From NCBI GenBank assembly GCA_007694095.1, contig RECI01000176.1, positions 1 to 64,000 of the forward strand: a stretch of DNA of 64,000 nucleotides, read 5' to 3'. The notes beneath the pieces were generated by a model, which was not told the origin of the DNA, ran no database searches, and worked only from the letters and a program-made list of their open reading frames with translations. The DNA is from Balneolaceae bacterium (GTDB taxonomy: Bacteria > Bacteroidota > Rhodothermia > Balneolales > Balneolaceae). The translations under genes were made by a program, and so were the position numbers. Shown in pieces: positions 42,063 through 50,040 of the stretch (within the stretch, counting starts at the first letter, position 1; the number at the start of each line of letters is the position of its first letter).

Positions 42063-45000
42063 TTACTTTACCCATTTTCCATTCAGCATTACACGGGTGA
42101 TATTGTACATGTTTCGGATATCCATATCAGGAGACCCATCCACAAGCACCAGGTCTGCAATTTTTCCGTTTTCAATACTTCCGATGCGCTGCTCTGACCG
42201 CAAATAGCGTGCATTTTGGATGGTACTGCTGCTGATAACTTCGAGTGGGCTGAGACCGGCCTCAGCCAGCATCTCCATCTCCCTCTGATACGACCATCCA
42301 AAAGTGGCATGTTGGATACCGTAAACATGAGATCCGGTCACAATCTTCATCCCTGCACGATTTGCCATTTCCGTGAATTTCAGCATGTTTCGAAACCCCT
42401 CAACATGATAATCTTCCACACCTTCTTCTCCCTCCCGGCGTTCAAATAGTGCCAGTGTTGGTGAAAAGACCACATTGTTTTGAATTGCAAGCCCTATCAC
42501 CTCCTTAACCCGTTCGTGCTCAAGATCAATTTTTGACCATAGCCTGTAACGCTCGTCACTTCGTGCATTATCGTCGTTTTTTACCGAATTTTTAAACTCA
42601 CGGGCATCAGCGGTATCAGCCAGCGCTGTTCCAAAGGATGTAACGTGTTCAATTCCGTTCACTCCGGCACGAATGGCGTCATCCGCATCTACCAACTCGA
42701 GGTGAGCCATAACCGGGACACCGGCCTCACGTGCGGTTTTGGTTACATCATCATAATATTCAAGCGGCAGCCGGTAATATATTTTTATGCCGGTCCCTCC
42801 TTCTTCCACATGTTTTCTGACCGTCTCACGGGCATGTGCCCCGTCCCTGACTACAACGGCCTGCTGCGGCCATACCGGCGGGAAACCGTCAAGATGAGCG
42901 CCGGTCAGAAATACCCTCGGCAGTGGTTTGTCAGTAAAATTCAGTGATTGGTAAAAGCTGAAAGGATGGCCGGGATCACGCAGGGAAGTGACACCTCTCT
43001 GAAGGTAGTCTGAGAGCAGGTCATTATTCATGATAGAATGAAAATGTGCATCTATAAGCCCGGGTATAAGTGTTTTCCCGGATGCATCAAATCTTTCGGC
43101 ATCAGCCGGTATCTCTATGTCATAACGGCTGCCTGCAGCGATAATACGATTGTTTTTCACGATTACTACCGCATCATCAACAGGCGGTCCTCCGAGACCG
43201 TCTATTAAGCGTGCCCCGTTAATCGCGATAAGGGATTCCTCTTTGGGCGCTTCGGCAGGATTCACCTCCTCCAGTGGTTTGATCAGCATCGACCTTAGTT
43301 CGTCGTATAACACTTGCTGCATTTCCGGACCGAAGCGGTTATAATCAAATGCTGTTTTGAAACGCAGATGTTCTCCCGCTCCCATTCTTTCAAATACCGG
43401 ACGTACCTGCTGAACGGCGTTCTTTACCTCTTCAGGCACTGCCTGTGTATCTATCTTTGGAGTGATAACCGAAACTTTCCTGGGGGCTACAGCGGCCATC
43501 ACCTCGTGATAATCATAGGGAACATGCTTTTCCTTCCCGATAAAATCGGCCAGCCAGGGCTGGAGCGGATAGTGCTTCGACCACCGGGCCAGCCCTCCGG
43601 TGTGTTTCTCTTCGGTATCCAGCCGCATTGGAGTAAATCCGGCGATCGAAATCACCCCTGCAATGCGCTCATCAAGCGCTGCCGCATGCAGAGCCGCGCG
43701 CCCTCCCATCGCAAATCCAAGCAGATAGATCTGGCCAGTATCCAAAAAACCGGTATCCCCGAATTCATCATATTCGGTGAGCGGTTCATAGATCAGCGCG
43801 TTGACGGCCTGCTTAATATCATGCACCATTTTGCCGAGCAGTGTCCATCCGGGATAGCGCTCATAAAACCGTGAGGCCTCTTCAATCCGGGTTCCATGAC
43901 CAATTTGATCAAATGCAAATACGGCATAACCTTGTGCCGCAAGTGCGAGGGTTGTGGGATGACCGCGCCGGTAACCAGCCCGATAACCATTTGAAACTGA
44001 GATGGGATGAATCCAGATGATGACGGGAAGTATATCGCCTCGTTCCACCGCTTCCTCCGGGTAGTAAATATCACCGGCGATATAATTACCAAAATTCAGG
44101 GATAATGAACCGATTCCCTCATAAGCCGAACCCGGCGCCCTTCTGCTTAACATACTCGAAATGTAGCCTCTTTCCGAACCGTAACTCCCTGCAAAGCTTG
44201 TTGCCTCCGGTGGTGCTGTACCCAGGCCGGCCCGTATCCGTTTGCGTATGTCCATCGAATAATTATCCCACTGCTGGTGGAAGTCATCTAATTCCGCAAT
44301 ATCGGAAAGCAGGTCATCCGGTGATTTATCCGGAAAATCATCCGGGCTAAGGCGTTCCGGCACAGTGCGTTCCCAATCTTGAAAAGCAGGATAAAGCGCA
44401 TCATTTACTACTCCCACCAGTGGTTTACGGTTGAGCTGTACATCCAGCCAGTCAAGATATTCCTCGATATCGCGCGCTTTTGTCTCGTGGGTGCCTGGTC
44501 GGTAAAGAAGCTGGATATTATCTCCGGCCCCCAATAGGTCATACACTTTTTTTGCGGATCGCCAGGAGTGCTCAATATCCCATACGCTTTCCACATTGTC
44601 ATTCAAAGCAACAGCATAGAGAAAAGGTGCCGGAGCAATGGCTGCAACCATATTTGGGGTGTCGATGGGCAGTTTATCTTCCCGGCCGGTAAAAAAGCGA
44701 AGCCTGGGATGGAACCAGTCGGGGAAACGCCGGGTTAGAATCTCAATGCCCTCAGCGAACTCCGATTCCGAAAAAAAGCGAAAGGTATTCACACCGCCCG
44801 CGCCGGAACTGCTGGAAATAATCGCACCAAAACGGGGATCAAGTGCACCTGCAATCACAGACAGCTTACCATTGCGGGAGTGACCGGTAAGAGCCACTTT
44901 ATCCTGCTCTATGAAGTCAAGTGTTTCAAGGTAATCCAAAACGCGGCTCGCACCCCAGGCCCTGCGGGCCATCAGTGACCAGTCATAATCAGGATAAACA

Positions 45001-45647
45001 TTCAGCCAGGCTTCGGTATCGTCTTTAGAGTCGGCACCTGCATAGACAACACCTGCGTACCCACGGCTGACCGCTACCAATGCCCAGCGGCGGTGATTGT
45101 CCTGGGTCATGAAAACCGGGAACGGGCCTTCCCCTTTTGGCAGGATCATTTCAAAAGAGAGTGTGGCTTTATGATCCGGCCCGAACTCCAGTACGATATC
45201 ATGAATTGTTATATGATTTTCATTCCTGATCGTTTCCTTTTTTACACGCAGGTTTCGGGGCGGTTCAGGCACCTTCCCGATCAGCCATTGCATCATCTGC
45301 TTGCGAATCTCCTCCTGCCTCAACGGCCACTCTGCAGCTAATATAACAGGTTCACCGTTCTCCATCCGGAGCGGATCGGGAATAAACGGGATACTTTTTA
45401 TCGCTTCGAAATCCGGCGGCAATTCACCCGTTTCGTTAAGCCACCTAATCCATTTATTTCGTTCATCCGGCCATTCATTTTCTGCCGGAAAGAGCAGGTG
45501 CATCTCCTCCAGGTAAGCCCGTCTCCTTTCTTCAGATTCGCCGTTTGATTGAGCCAGTGCCGGCAAGTAGCCTGATATTATTATTCCTGCACATATAACA
45601 CACCGGAGTACCACTCCGCGAATACCCCACGCTTCCTGCATAAACAA
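42063..45647 (-). CDS. Secreted fusion: CE15-like esterase + second alpha/beta-hydrolase + amidohydrolase
   Basis: Signal peptide; LTGHSRNGKLSVIAGALD, LLGFAMGGRAALHAAA, LIPGLIDAHFHS ... ADLVLVDGSPD in one 1194-aa ORF. Confidence 0.83.
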   Translation of the reverse strand: MFMQEAWGIRGVVLRCVICAGIIISGYLPALAQSNGESEERRRAYLEEMHLLFPAENEWPDERNKWIRWLNETGELPPDFEAIKSIPFIPDPLRMENGEPVILAAEWPLRQEEIRKQMMQWLIGKVPEPPRNLRVKKETIRNENHITIHDIVLEFGPDHKATLSFEMILPKGEGPFPVFMTQDNHRRWALVAVSRGYAGVVYAGADSKDDTEAWLNVYPDYDWSLMARRAWGASRVLDYLETLDFIEQDKVALTGHSRNGKLSVIAGALDPRFGAIISSSSGAGGVNTFRFFSESEFAEGIEILTRRFPDWFHPRLRFFTGREDKLPIDTPNMVAAIAPAPFLYAVALNDNVESVWDIEHSWRSAKKVYDLLGAGDNIQLLYRPGTHETKARDIEEYLDWLDVQLNRKPLVGVVNDALYPAFQDWERTVPERLSPDDFPDKSPDDLLSDIAELDDFHQQWDNYSMDIRKRIRAGLGTAPPEATSFAGSYGSERGYISSMLSRRAPGSAYEGIGSLSLNFGNYIAGDIYYPEEAVERGDILPVIIWIHPISVSNGYRAGYRRGHPTTLALAAQGYAVFAFDQIGHGTRIEEASRFYERYPGWTLLGKMVHDIKQAVNALIYEPLTEYDEFGDTGFLDTGQIYLLGFAMGGRAALHAAALDERIAGVISIAGFTPMRLDTEEKHTGGLARWSKHYPLQPWLADFIGKEKHVPYDYHEVMAAVAPRKVSVITPKIDTQAVPEEVKNAVQQVRPVFERMGAGEHLRFKTAFDYNRFGPEMQQVLYDELRSMLIKPLEEVNPAEAPKEESLIAINGARLIDGLGGPPVDDAVVIVKNNRIIAAGSRYDIEIPADAERFDASGKTLIPGLIDAHFHSIMNNDLLSDYLQRGVTSLRDPGHPFSFYQSLNFTDKPLPRVFLTGAHLDGFPPVWPQQAVVVRDGAHARETVRKHVEEGGTGIKIYYRLPLEYYDDVTKTAREAGVPVMAHLELVDADDAIRAGVNGIEHVTSFGTALADTADAREFKNSVKNDDNARSDERYRLWSKIDLEHERVKEVIGLAIQNNVVFSPTLALFERREGEEGVEDYHVEGFRNMLKFTEMANRAGMKIVTGSHVYGIQHATFGWSYQREMEMLAEAGLSPLEVISSSTIQNARYLRSEQRIGSIENGKIADLVLVDGSPDMDIRNMYNITRVMLNGKWVK

Positions 45648-46885: not shown

Positions 46886-47887
46886 TTATCGGTTGGCAAG
46901 GGGCCTTGCCGGTACACCTTTAAAACTAATCTGAACAGGTTTGATTTTTCCATCGCTGTCAAATTCCATTTTTTCAATACTTACAACCCTGCGATTATGA
47001 TGGGTTTCTTCCAGTGGCCTTCTGTGATAAACAATGTAATACTCATCCTCACCCGGTATCTGGAGTACTGAGTGATGGCCTGCACCTGTTGCAACAGCAG
47101 GGTCCTGCTGAAGTATGATTTCTTCTCTTTCGAATGGCCCCAGGGGGTTGTCTGAAATGGCATAAGCTACCCTGTAATTTGGTCCGCCCCATCCCCCTTC
47201 CGACCACATAAAATAATATTTTCCATTCCGGATAAACATAAATGGTCCTTCAACATAACCCTCCGGTGTTATCTCCTTATAAACCGTTCCATCCTCAAAA
47301 GGGATCAGTCCGGTAAAGTCATCATTAAGCATTACAACATTACAATGCCCCCAACCCCCGTAATACATATAATATGTTCCGTCTGAATCTCTGAAAACAT
47401 ATTGGTCGATCGGCTGGGCTCCGTTAACAATCTCATTTATCAAAGGTTTTCCGAGCAGGTCTTTGTATGGCCCTTCCGGCCGGTCTGAAACAGCTACCCC
47501 TATCCCGCCAACCTGGCCTTCATGCACATCATTGGCTGCAAAGAAGAAATAATATTTTTCATCTTTTTTTATGGATGCCGGTGCCCACATGGCACTATCG
47601 GCCCACTGTACTGCCAGTGTATCGATAATGCGTTCATGTTTTGTCCAGTTAACCAGGTCGGGTGAAGAGAACGCATCGAAAAAAACCTGCTTGTGGTAAT
47701 AATCCGAGTATGTAGGAAATATCCAATAGGTGTCATCATAAACACGTGAAGCGGGGTCTGCATACCATCCGTCGAAAAGAGGATTTCCGGAATAATTAAT
47801 TTCTTCATTTTCGGGTGACTTGTTGCAGGCTGTTGTGAATAAAATAACAGAAAGAAAAAATAAAAGGTTTTTCATAACGATTGGCAA
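46886..47887 (-). CDS. GH43-family glycoside hydrolase, lipoprotein
   Basis: Lipobox FTTAC; NPLFDGWYADPASRVYDDTYWIF, MWAPASI, YVEGPFMFIRNGKYYFMWSEGGW. Confidence 0.88.
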   Translation of the reverse strand: MPIVMKNLLFFLSVILFTTACNKSPENEEINYSGNPLFDGWYADPASRVYDDTYWIFPTYSDYYHKQVFFDAFSSPDLVNWTKHERIIDTLAVQWADSAMWAPASIKKDEKYYFFFAANDVHEGQVGGIGVAVSDRPEGPYKDLLGKPLINEIVNGAQPIDQYVFRDSDGTYYMYYGGWGHCNVVMLNDDFTGLIPFEDGTVYKEITPEGYVEGPFMFIRNGKYYFMWSEGGWGGPNYRVAYAISDNPLGPFEREEIILQQDPAVATGAGHHSVLQIPGEDEYYIVYHRRPLEETHHNRRVVSIEKMEFDSDGKIKPVQISFKGVPARPLANR

Positions 47888-47955
47888 TACTCTGATTTGA
47901 GGTAATTTAATTATTGTGGTAATACCTCAAATTTAGTGATTAAATTGTGAAAAAT

Positions 47956-48038
47956 GCTCAGAACGTCAGCGCTCCTGATTTATCCCACATAGCGAAGTGA
48001 TTCCCGCGCAGTGAAAAGCTGGAGCGATAACGATAGTC
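47956..48038 (-). repeat. Dispersed ~85 bp repeat, copy B (inverted relative to copy A)
   Basis: Reverse complement aligns with 41491-41578. Confidence 0.8.
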
Positions 48039-48411
48039 CAGACACACCGTTTAGTAAACAAAATTTTAAAACTCAAAAACTCCGATTCAAAGTAACAGAA
48101 AATTAATCGAATCCTCTTAAACAGTAGCATAACAAAAAACTTTCATTTTGATAGGCTTTATATATCAATTAATAACTTATACTTAGAAGACCTGCAAAGT
48201 TCATAATAAAACAATAAAAAAATATTTACTATTTAGAATATGTCTAAATAGAACGATAGTAAATTGCCCCCCAACAGCTTCTACAGAGTCACCTAAAATC
48301 GTTCTCGAAAAAACATAATTTGTACATGTTGACGGGCATCAGTAAAAGTGTTTACTTACAGTAGATTCATTGATCATCTAACGATGACTGATGATTCAGG
48401 ATCAGGGAATT

Positions 48412-48632
48412 TTGGAGGCGATAGTTCCCGGGTGTAAAAAGCCAGGGTATCTGCCGCAAGGCAGAAAAAATCGCACTGAAATGAACTGACACCGGAGCCT
48501 TCTTCTTAGGAACAAGAGCTGTCGGCCCGGATGGTGCGAACTACGGTTCAAGTCATCTTGTAAGATGTACAGAATGCCTAACCGGTATCGCTGTTATTTG
48601 CCGAAGACTCCCTGAGAGGGAGGTTTTTTTTT
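48412..48632 (+). ncRNA. Candidate structured ncRNA of unknown family
   Basis: TCTGCC-GCAA-GGCAGA GNRA hairpin, long-range pairings, CATCTTGTAAGATG hairpin, CTCCCT-gag-AGGGAG + T9 terminator; no plus-strand ORF of note. Confidence 0.45.
48608..48632 (+). terminator. Rho-independent terminator of the candidate ncRNA
   Basis: 6-bp stem followed by GGTTTTTTTTT. Confidence 0.75.
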
Positions 48633-48732
48633 GCCTATCAGCAATTGCAACTTAAAAATCGGATGACTTAACAGGGAAGCTCACAGCCAACTCCATAAAC
48701 AGTCATCCGTTGAAAATTTTAAACTTTCTCCT

Positions 48733-50040
48733 TTATACAAAAGGGGTTATGCCAGGCATGGGAACTTTCAGATCGCTGAATTTCGGTATAGTTTCCCAGC
48801 TGAGATTATCGGGGCCTAATTGCTCCTCTGAGTTCAACGCCTGTTCAACTGAAATTCTTCTTCCGGTATAGGCGGCCATGCGACCCATAATAGCTACCAG
48901 TGTACTGTTCGTCATGTATTCCCCATCATTGATAGGAATACCCCGGCGAATTGCAGCAAACAATTCATCATGCTGGGTTTGGTACATATTATTCTCTTCA
49001 CCATCATATGACCAGTTATTTCGCGCACTTATTGAATGCTGATTCCGTGAAACACTCGCGATGGCAACACCATCAGAACCGTAGATCTCGGCTTTATAAC
49101 TATTTTCACAGTTTGGCTGCTGCCTGCTGAAATGAAATCCTTTCGCGCCATTTGCATACTCGTAGGTTATGGCAAAGTGATCGTATATATCGCCAAACTC
49201 AGGTTCAACCCTTACCTGTCTGCCACCGGTTCCCATAGCACTTACAGGAAGCTGATCTCCCATTGCCCACTGCATAAAGTCGATACTGTGCACTGCCTGT
49301 TCCACAATGTGGTCGCCGGACATCCAGTTATAATAAATCCAGTTTCTCAACTGGAACTCTTCGTCGCTCCAATCGGCAGGCCTTTGGTCGAATCGGGCAG
49401 CACCGGTATTATATGTATTGTAGATGGTTCTGATATCACCTACCGCACCATTAAGAATCCGTTCATAAATTGCCCTTTTGGGATAATGATACCGCCAGCA
49501 AAAACCTGAAACTATGGAGAGCTCTTTCTCCCGGGCTTTCCTTACTGCTTCAAACATCCTGCGAACTCCGGGAGCATCCACAGCAACAGGCTTTTCGACA
49601 AACATATGAAGCCCTGCATCAACTGAAGCCTCAACATGGCCGGGCCTAAAACCCGGAGGCGCTCCGTGGATCACAACATCTATACCGGAACTAATTACAT
49701 CTTTATATGAATCAAATCCAACGAACTGGCGCTCTTCAGGTACATTAATCTTATCGCCATGTCGTTGTCTAAGTACAAAAAGTGCGTTCTCAATCTTGTC
49801 CGGAAAAATATCACATACGGCAACAAGTTCAACATTCGGATCCGCATTCAGTGCCTGGTTCGCGGCACCTGTACCACGGCCGCCACAACCGATAAGCCCA
49901 ACCTTTAGTTTAACATCCGGGCTCAGTGCCTTGTCGCTCACCAAAGCTTCCTGGGTAGAACATGCAGTAAGGGGCAGCATAGTTCCTGCAACGGCCATAC
50001 TTGATAATTTTAAAAATTCTCGTCTGTTATGTTTCTTCAT
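48733..50040 (-). CDS. Gfo/Idh/MocA-family oxidoreductase with Tat-like signal
   Basis: NRREFLKLSSMAVAGTMLPLTAC; VGLIGCGGRGTGAANQAL, FVEKPVAVDAPGVRRM. Confidence 0.93.
   Translation of the reverse strand: MKKHNRREFLKLSSMAVAGTMLPLTACSTQEALVSDKALSPDVKLKVGLIGCGGRGTGAANQALNADPNVELVAVCDIFPDKIENALFVLRQRHGDKINVPEERQFVGFDSYKDVISSGIDVVIHGAPPGFRPGHVEASVDAGLHMFVEKPVAVDAPGVRRMFEAVRKAREKELSIVSGFCWRYHYPKRAIYERILNGAVGDIRTIYNTYNTGAARFDQRPADWSDEEFQLRNWIYYNWMSGDHIVEQAVHSIDFMQWAMGDQLPVSAMGTGGRQVRVEPEFGDIYDHFAITYEYANGAKGFHFSRQQPNCENSYKAEIYGSDGVAIASVSRNQHSISARNNWSYDGEENNMYQTQHDELFAAIRRGIPINDGEYMTNSTLVAIMGRMAAYTGRRISVEQALNSEEQLGPDNLSWETIPKFSDLKVPMPGITPFV

Follow-up and report, generated by a model that had tools for sequence, protein, structure and literature searches.

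A putative free-standing structured RNA and its new family in the Balneolales

Comparative analysis of a Balneolaceae genome indicates that positions 48360-48632 of the plus strand almost certainly constitute a gene for a structured RNA. This RNA represents a new family of a familiar kind, most likely a regulatory noncoding RNA, that is not in Rfam and is lineage-restricted. The reading favored here, to which a probability of roughly 0.75 is assigned, is that of an independently transcribed, trans-acting structured noncoding RNA of a new Balneolales family, which would present its fold to a protein and act without Hfq. Action in trans is very probable; the protein-binding mode is put forward tentatively, at somewhat less than even odds.

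Genomic locus and extent of the RNA gene

The window (the whole stretch of DNA analyzed, 64,000 nt) comes from a 4.56-Mb, 99%-complete genome in 324 contigs (G000). A preliminary description of the locus had placed a candidate RNA in a gene-free gap of 845 bp; the gap was confirmed at exactly that length (47888-48732) between two minus-strand genes, and every sequence string quoted in the description was found in place. Its span for the RNA, 48412-48632, was right at the 3′ end and left out the first ~52 nt at the 5′ end, the modelled start lying at 48360.

46886-47887, minus strand: GH43 gene, left border of the gap
48360-48632, plus strand: RNA as modelled (covariance models R1, 274.8 bits, and R2, 257.7 bits)
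48733-50040, minus strand: Gfo/Idh oxidoreductase gene, right border of the gap

The GH43 gene adjoins a 1194-aa open frame (42063-45647, minus strand) with glucuronyl-esterase-like (GCE_fung), second alpha/beta-hydrolase and C-terminal amidohydrolase domains, an unusual three-enzyme fusion. Records of the same genus are uncultured Balneolaceae; several bear 'CSSed' isolate names, which we read as soda-lake sediment.

Secondary structure

The RNA is ~270 nt long from its modelled start at 48360 and comprises three domains: a 5′ hairpin (I), a three-way-junction domain (II) and a 3′ rod (III). The same layout was obtained for diverged copies from RNAalifold and single-sequence folds. The plus strand folds better than 200/200 dinucleotide shuffles (z -3.8), versus z -2.2 for the minus strand.

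48364-48397, plus strand: domain I, 5′ hairpin; outer helix 48364-48370/48391-48397, inner helix 48374-48378/48383-48387; both sides changed in 9/12 pairs
48400-48493, plus strand: domain II, two stacked helices (48400-48406/48485-48493 and 48410-48415/48476-48481) leading to a three-way junction
48420-48472, plus strand: three-way junction; closing helix 48420-48422/48470-48472, pairing at 89-92%
48427-48447, plus strand: hairpin IIa, loop GUGUAAAA / GUGUGAAA; covariation in 5/6 pairs
48450-48465, plus strand: hairpin IIb, with a GCAA loop in the window's genome; covariation in 5/6 pairs
48495-48626, plus strand: domain III rod; 48495-48510/48611-48626, then 48516-48518/48608-48610 and 48522-48526/48600-48604
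48527-48560, plus strand: hairpin IIIa, cap C(UACG)G; 91.7% paired
48563-48599, plus strand: hairpin IIIb; both sides changed in 10/13 pairs
48624-48632, plus strand: T9 tract of the likely terminator, directly 3′ of the domain III closing helix

The junction carries conserved unpaired AGUU and AAAA segments, and its sequence GAUAGUUCNCG...AAAAUC is kept in most copies of family f1. In domain III, the closing helix is a long-range pairing of 16 bp with 94.4% of cells paired, which is also kept in a second family (f4), and the loop of hairpin IIIa is UACG or CACG in 20/20 domain III sequences.

Each pairing drawn in the preliminary description was scored as paired cells over 18 homologues. The hairpin TCTGCC-GCAA-GGCAGA (48450-48465) was kept, with 92/108 cells pairing. 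GCGAT/ATCGC, drawn as a pseudoknot, survives as a helix (67/90 cells as drawn, the inner three pairs at 89-92%) and forms part of the conserved helix closing the three-way junction, being nested rather than knotted. The remaining pairings, namely CGGGTGT/ACACCGG (77/126 cells), GTTCC/GGAAC (62/90), the enclosing helix CGGTT/AACCG (54/90) and the hairpin CATCTT/AAGATG (64/90), are not conserved. The terminator had been read as a local CTCCCT/AGGGAG stem followed by T9; the T9 is conserved and the stem is not (62/108). Local 3′ hairpins are mostly weak in the homologues (-0.8 to -8.9 kcal/mol) and strongest in the window's genome, and a T-rich tract follows GGCT/GGTT in all homologues. The terminator is likely to consist of the long-range base helix of domain III plus U9. 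The fold as first drawn is mostly wrong, whereas the main interpretation in the preliminary description is supported.

A kissing or pseudoknot interaction of UAGUUC (domain II) with GAACUA (domain III) was also considered and rejected: it is perfect in the window, but it fails in three homologues (L006, L012 and L015), and the UACG hairpin is in competition with it.

Covariation among homologues

In the model alignment, which was built with the structural model, 88.5% of 1592 cells pair and both sides have changed in 56/89 pairs; the covariation score is 0.427, versus 0.225 ± 0.009 for shuffled and 0.10-0.13 for slid partners. Since this alignment came from the structural model, the count was repeated on a sequence-only MAFFT alignment and compared with a tree-preserving null, in which each column, starting from the consensus, evolved by itself on the same tree (300 simulations). 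On the sequence-only alignment, 85.8% of cells pair (null, 64.3 ± 1.8%), double changes occur in 54/89 pairs (null, 30.8 ± 3.9) and 171 cells are double changes (null, 60 ± 10); none of the 300 simulations reached the observed value on any of the three measures. For domain III with the f4 copies included, the sequence-only alignment gave 88.7% paired cells and double changes in 28/45 pairs. The excess of G-U cells (217) over A-C cells (32) fixes the plus strand as the one that folds.

An APC-corrected G-test against a simulated null, underpowered at 18 sequences, placed 6/89 structure pairs at E < 0.05 and, with the same limited power, found nothing significant among all column pairs. It was because such an R-scape-like test is underpowered at this depth that the tree-preserving null on the named structure was used. 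The covariation among homologues that the preliminary description had proposed as a check was strong, and the outcome named there as a refutation, a lack of covarying homologues, did not occur. In these alignments, compensatory changes go beyond phylogeny, and the covariation is regarded as decisive for the predicted structure.

Promoter and transcription unit

All copies examined have a predicted dedicated promoter in front of them, ACATATTG ... TATATTAC, together with a conserved repeat farther upstream. Its elements in the window are as follows.

48313-48332, plus strand: promoter upstream element, tandem ACATAATTTG-T-ACATGTTGA with an 11-nt period, aligned upstream of homologues
48329-48334, plus strand: -35-like TTGACG; TTG invariant in 18/18 homologues checked
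48352-48359, plus strand: -7/-10-like box TTACTTAC; family consensus T(A/T)nnTT(A/G)Y

The second copy of the upstream repeat overlaps the -35 region, and the repeat is the sole match in the window at ≤3 mismatches, with 0 expected in shuffles. A script search placed the -7/-10 box 17-18 nt from the ACATRTTGAC block in 17/18 homologues (row L016 unresolved). The family pattern is accordingly AACATnnTTyG-n-ACATATTGAC, 17-18 nt, and T(A/T)nnTT(A/G)Y; across 233 kb of this and related loci, 8 of the 9 matches to the core promoter pattern are the promoter of this RNA.

The sigma-A box of Bacteroidota is TAnnTTTG, and in Flavobacterium psychrophilum a TAnnTTGY variant has been attributed to what is probably an alternative sigma factor (PMC9723704); the -7 box of the RNA resembles the former and, more closely, the latter (PMC9723704). 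With the box at -12 to -5 (PMC9723704), transcription would start at 48364, and the inferred start (~48364) would coincide with the first paired base of domain I. The promoter may be regulated. The conserved promoter and U-tract point to a unit that is transcribed on its own and not to a leader; as far as sequence can tell, the RNA has what defines a free-standing sRNA gene, namely its own promoter and terminator and independence of its neighbors.

Phylogenetic distribution

In a 59-genome sample, BLASTN found a single copy in 16 of the genus's 28 species and no copy in any other genome. The copies keep the same length and layout, and in an alignment with flanks, the shared block begins ~60 bp ahead of the RNA and ends with the T-run, with nothing shared beyond. 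The full-length covariance model R1 recovered these 16 and, at 167-194 bits, one further genome from each of two sister genera. The refined model R2 added two genomes of the second Balneolales family (f4); in both, the RNA is present as a tandem pair of copies that lie 728 bp apart and have their own promoters and terminators, versus a single copy in f1.

Beyond these, the domain III model R3 yielded no convincing further member in 245 genomes of the class and 395 of the phylum, its matches outside the four positive genera being partial (~33-40 nt, E ≥ 0.0017). When 84,980 genomes were scanned for the pattern, only chance matches appeared beyond Balneolaceae and a 'Bacteroidetes bacterium UBA2664' record, and the viral contigs, plasmids and phages searched gave no real match; the searches of >40 genomes used strict filters, by which very divergent relatives may be missed. 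Weak partial matches to the full model (13-24 bits; L140:1067-1162, L090:4384-4473 and L089:4970-5167) are probably due to chance.

Several complete genomes of the same genus (e.g., G005, G012, G016, G019 and G023) keep the methyltransferase-GT2 gene pair and lack the RNA both there and elsewhere, and no degenerate copies were found at the orthologous site of RNA-less genomes. The RNA is dispensable and not housekeeping; its absence from most of the order argues against a housekeeping role.

Mode of action

In the proposed mechanism, a regulated promoter would make the RNA under some condition, and the transcript would fold while being made. Its 3′ rod, closing through the long-range base helix at the U-tract, would then end its own transcription. 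The stable RNA would act away from its own locus and without Hfq, its conserved helices and loops being presented to a protein, either for titration or as a scaffold, in the manner of 6S- or CsrB-type RNAs. About 65% of the nucleotides are paired, the conserved unpaired runs are short and much of what is conserved in sequence is located within helices and in the UACG loop, features that were counted for protein binding. Hfq (PF17209) was detected in 0/28 genomes of the genus, with positive controls, and identification as an Hfq-dependent sRNA was rejected for this reason.

A serious rival, possible if on the doubtful side, is an antisense regulatory RNA whose AGUU, hairpin IIa loop and AACAA would pair with mRNAs in trans, the structure merely stabilizing it. 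These unpaired segments (AGUU in the junction, the GUGUAAAA loop and an AACAA internal loop) are conserved and could equally be base-pairing seeds. The tandem paralogues with separate promoters resemble duplicated regulatory sRNAs, and a patchy distribution and dispensability are also in line with such a role. However, the segments are short within a mostly paired RNA, and Hfq was not detected in the genus, even if pairing can also proceed without it. Rather unlikely is a new functional class, in which a condition-induced scaffold of haloalkaliphilic Balneolales would control a cellular machine through a mechanism unlike that of 6S, CsrB or antisense RNAs; domain III would be its conserved working part, and domain II a module specific to the lineage.

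Genomic neighborhoods

The RNA occurs in at least six different neighborhoods, in most of which it faces a convergent gene: SDR / Idh-methyltransferase-GT2 (the type in the window), a KaiC/SGNH region, Era-response regulator, MreB, a YciI region and MurB-FKBP, the names of neighbors other than the window's searched genes being read from translated ends rather than family searches. In one subgroup, the SDR gene preceding the RNA has a tRNA cluster upstream of it (Pro, Arg, Cys, Glu, His and Glu; L034:6790-7852, L037:5063-6018 and L033:39-210), in which the two tRNA-Glu score equally.

A small mobile or selfish element, i.e., an RNA gene hopping between loci, might account for the six contexts, for presence and absence between close relatives and for the tandem duplication in one family. 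It might also account for a tree of the neighboring glycosyltransferase in which well-supported branches force at least three changes of the presence/absence label; that tree, with an unreliable row for G009, shows solely that presence forms no single clean clade. Such an element is nonetheless improbable: conservation is confined to the promoter-to-terminator unit with no shared flanks in the alignment, inverted repeats or a transposase were not seen, and the genomes of one subgroup share the same site. In G010, the whole RNA interval is missing between flanks that are 84-86% identical to those of G022, and this absence reads as a loss, i.e., a deletion, since G022, G026 and others share the site.

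Comparison with known RNAs

No family among the 4227 of Rfam 15 matched the window at gathering score, with sub-threshold noise only at E ≤ 10, and six homologous loci gave nothing but tRNAs. This cmsearch had been suggested in the preliminary description, where a clear Rfam hit was the outcome that would count against novelty; none appeared. The description itself had not matched the RNA to RNase P, tmRNA, SRP, 6S or a familiar riboswitch. RNase P RNA (RF00010; contig C101, 224 bits) and tmRNA (RF00023; contig C287, 170 bits) were rejected as identities, their copies in this genome lying elsewhere. The small bacterial SRP model (RF00169) found nothing in the whole genome nor in a Bacteroides control; identity as SRP RNA was rejected, with no Rfam match at the locus and the absence of the RNA from complete relatives arguing against it. 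The SRP RNA of this bacterial group may be divergent.

Very improbable is a replacement 6S RNA, which would bind RNA polymerase in stationary phase. The 6S model (RF00013) has no match in the whole genome, and the RNA would loosely fit such a role in its size, its single copy and its rod-like 3′ domain; yet the window gives no 6S score, the fold has no large symmetric central bubble and, unlike 6S, the RNA is missing from complete same-genus genomes and most of the order. The protein-presenting RNA favored here shares with 6S (RF00013) and 6S-Flavo (RF01685) a free-standing gene, a 3′ rod-like domain and the lack of a host gene, and differs in its missing central bubble, patchy distribution, three domains and ~270-nt length. 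It resembles the protein-titrating sRNAs of the CsrB/RsmZ type in being stand-alone, highly structured and, as proposed here, Hfq-independent, whereas their repeated GGA-in-loop motif was not seen by inspection. OmrA/B and AbcR1/2 are tandem regulatory sRNA paralogues; the f4 copies are like them in number and in their separate promoters, but the RNA is single copy in f1 and much more structured, and no Hfq was detected in its genus. Like Bacteroidales-1 (RF01693) and Flavo-1 (RF01705), it is a structured RNA of one Bacteroidota lineage known from comparative evidence alone (PMC2864571), and it differs from candidates of that type in having both promoter and terminator conserved and no Rfam match.

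That the RNA acts in cis on an adjacent gene, as a leader, attenuator or riboswitch, is highly improbable. Leaders typically have a stable fold with a terminator at its end, but both in the window and at most homologous loci the gene downstream is convergent, and the neighbors differ wholly between lineages, which already contradicts this reading and bears out the earlier view that the RNA is not a leader of the minus-strand flanking genes. That there is no functional RNA, only a chance fold, conserved DNA or coding sequence, is hardly tenable: single-sequence folds alone are indeed weak evidence, but covariation far above the shuffled, slid and tree-preserving nulls, the G-U asymmetry and the lack of a reading frame open in all copies refute it at the level of comparative evidence.

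Conclusions

The RNA family described here is absent from Rfam and has comparative support that is unusually strong for its size; no sRNA literature on Balneolales was found. Its expression, regulation and loss of function are directly testable, since a consensus fold, a dedicated promoter motif and a clean deletion in nature are at hand. The finding also suggests that large structured RNAs serve in regulation in some haloalkaliphiles in which Hfq is not detectable.
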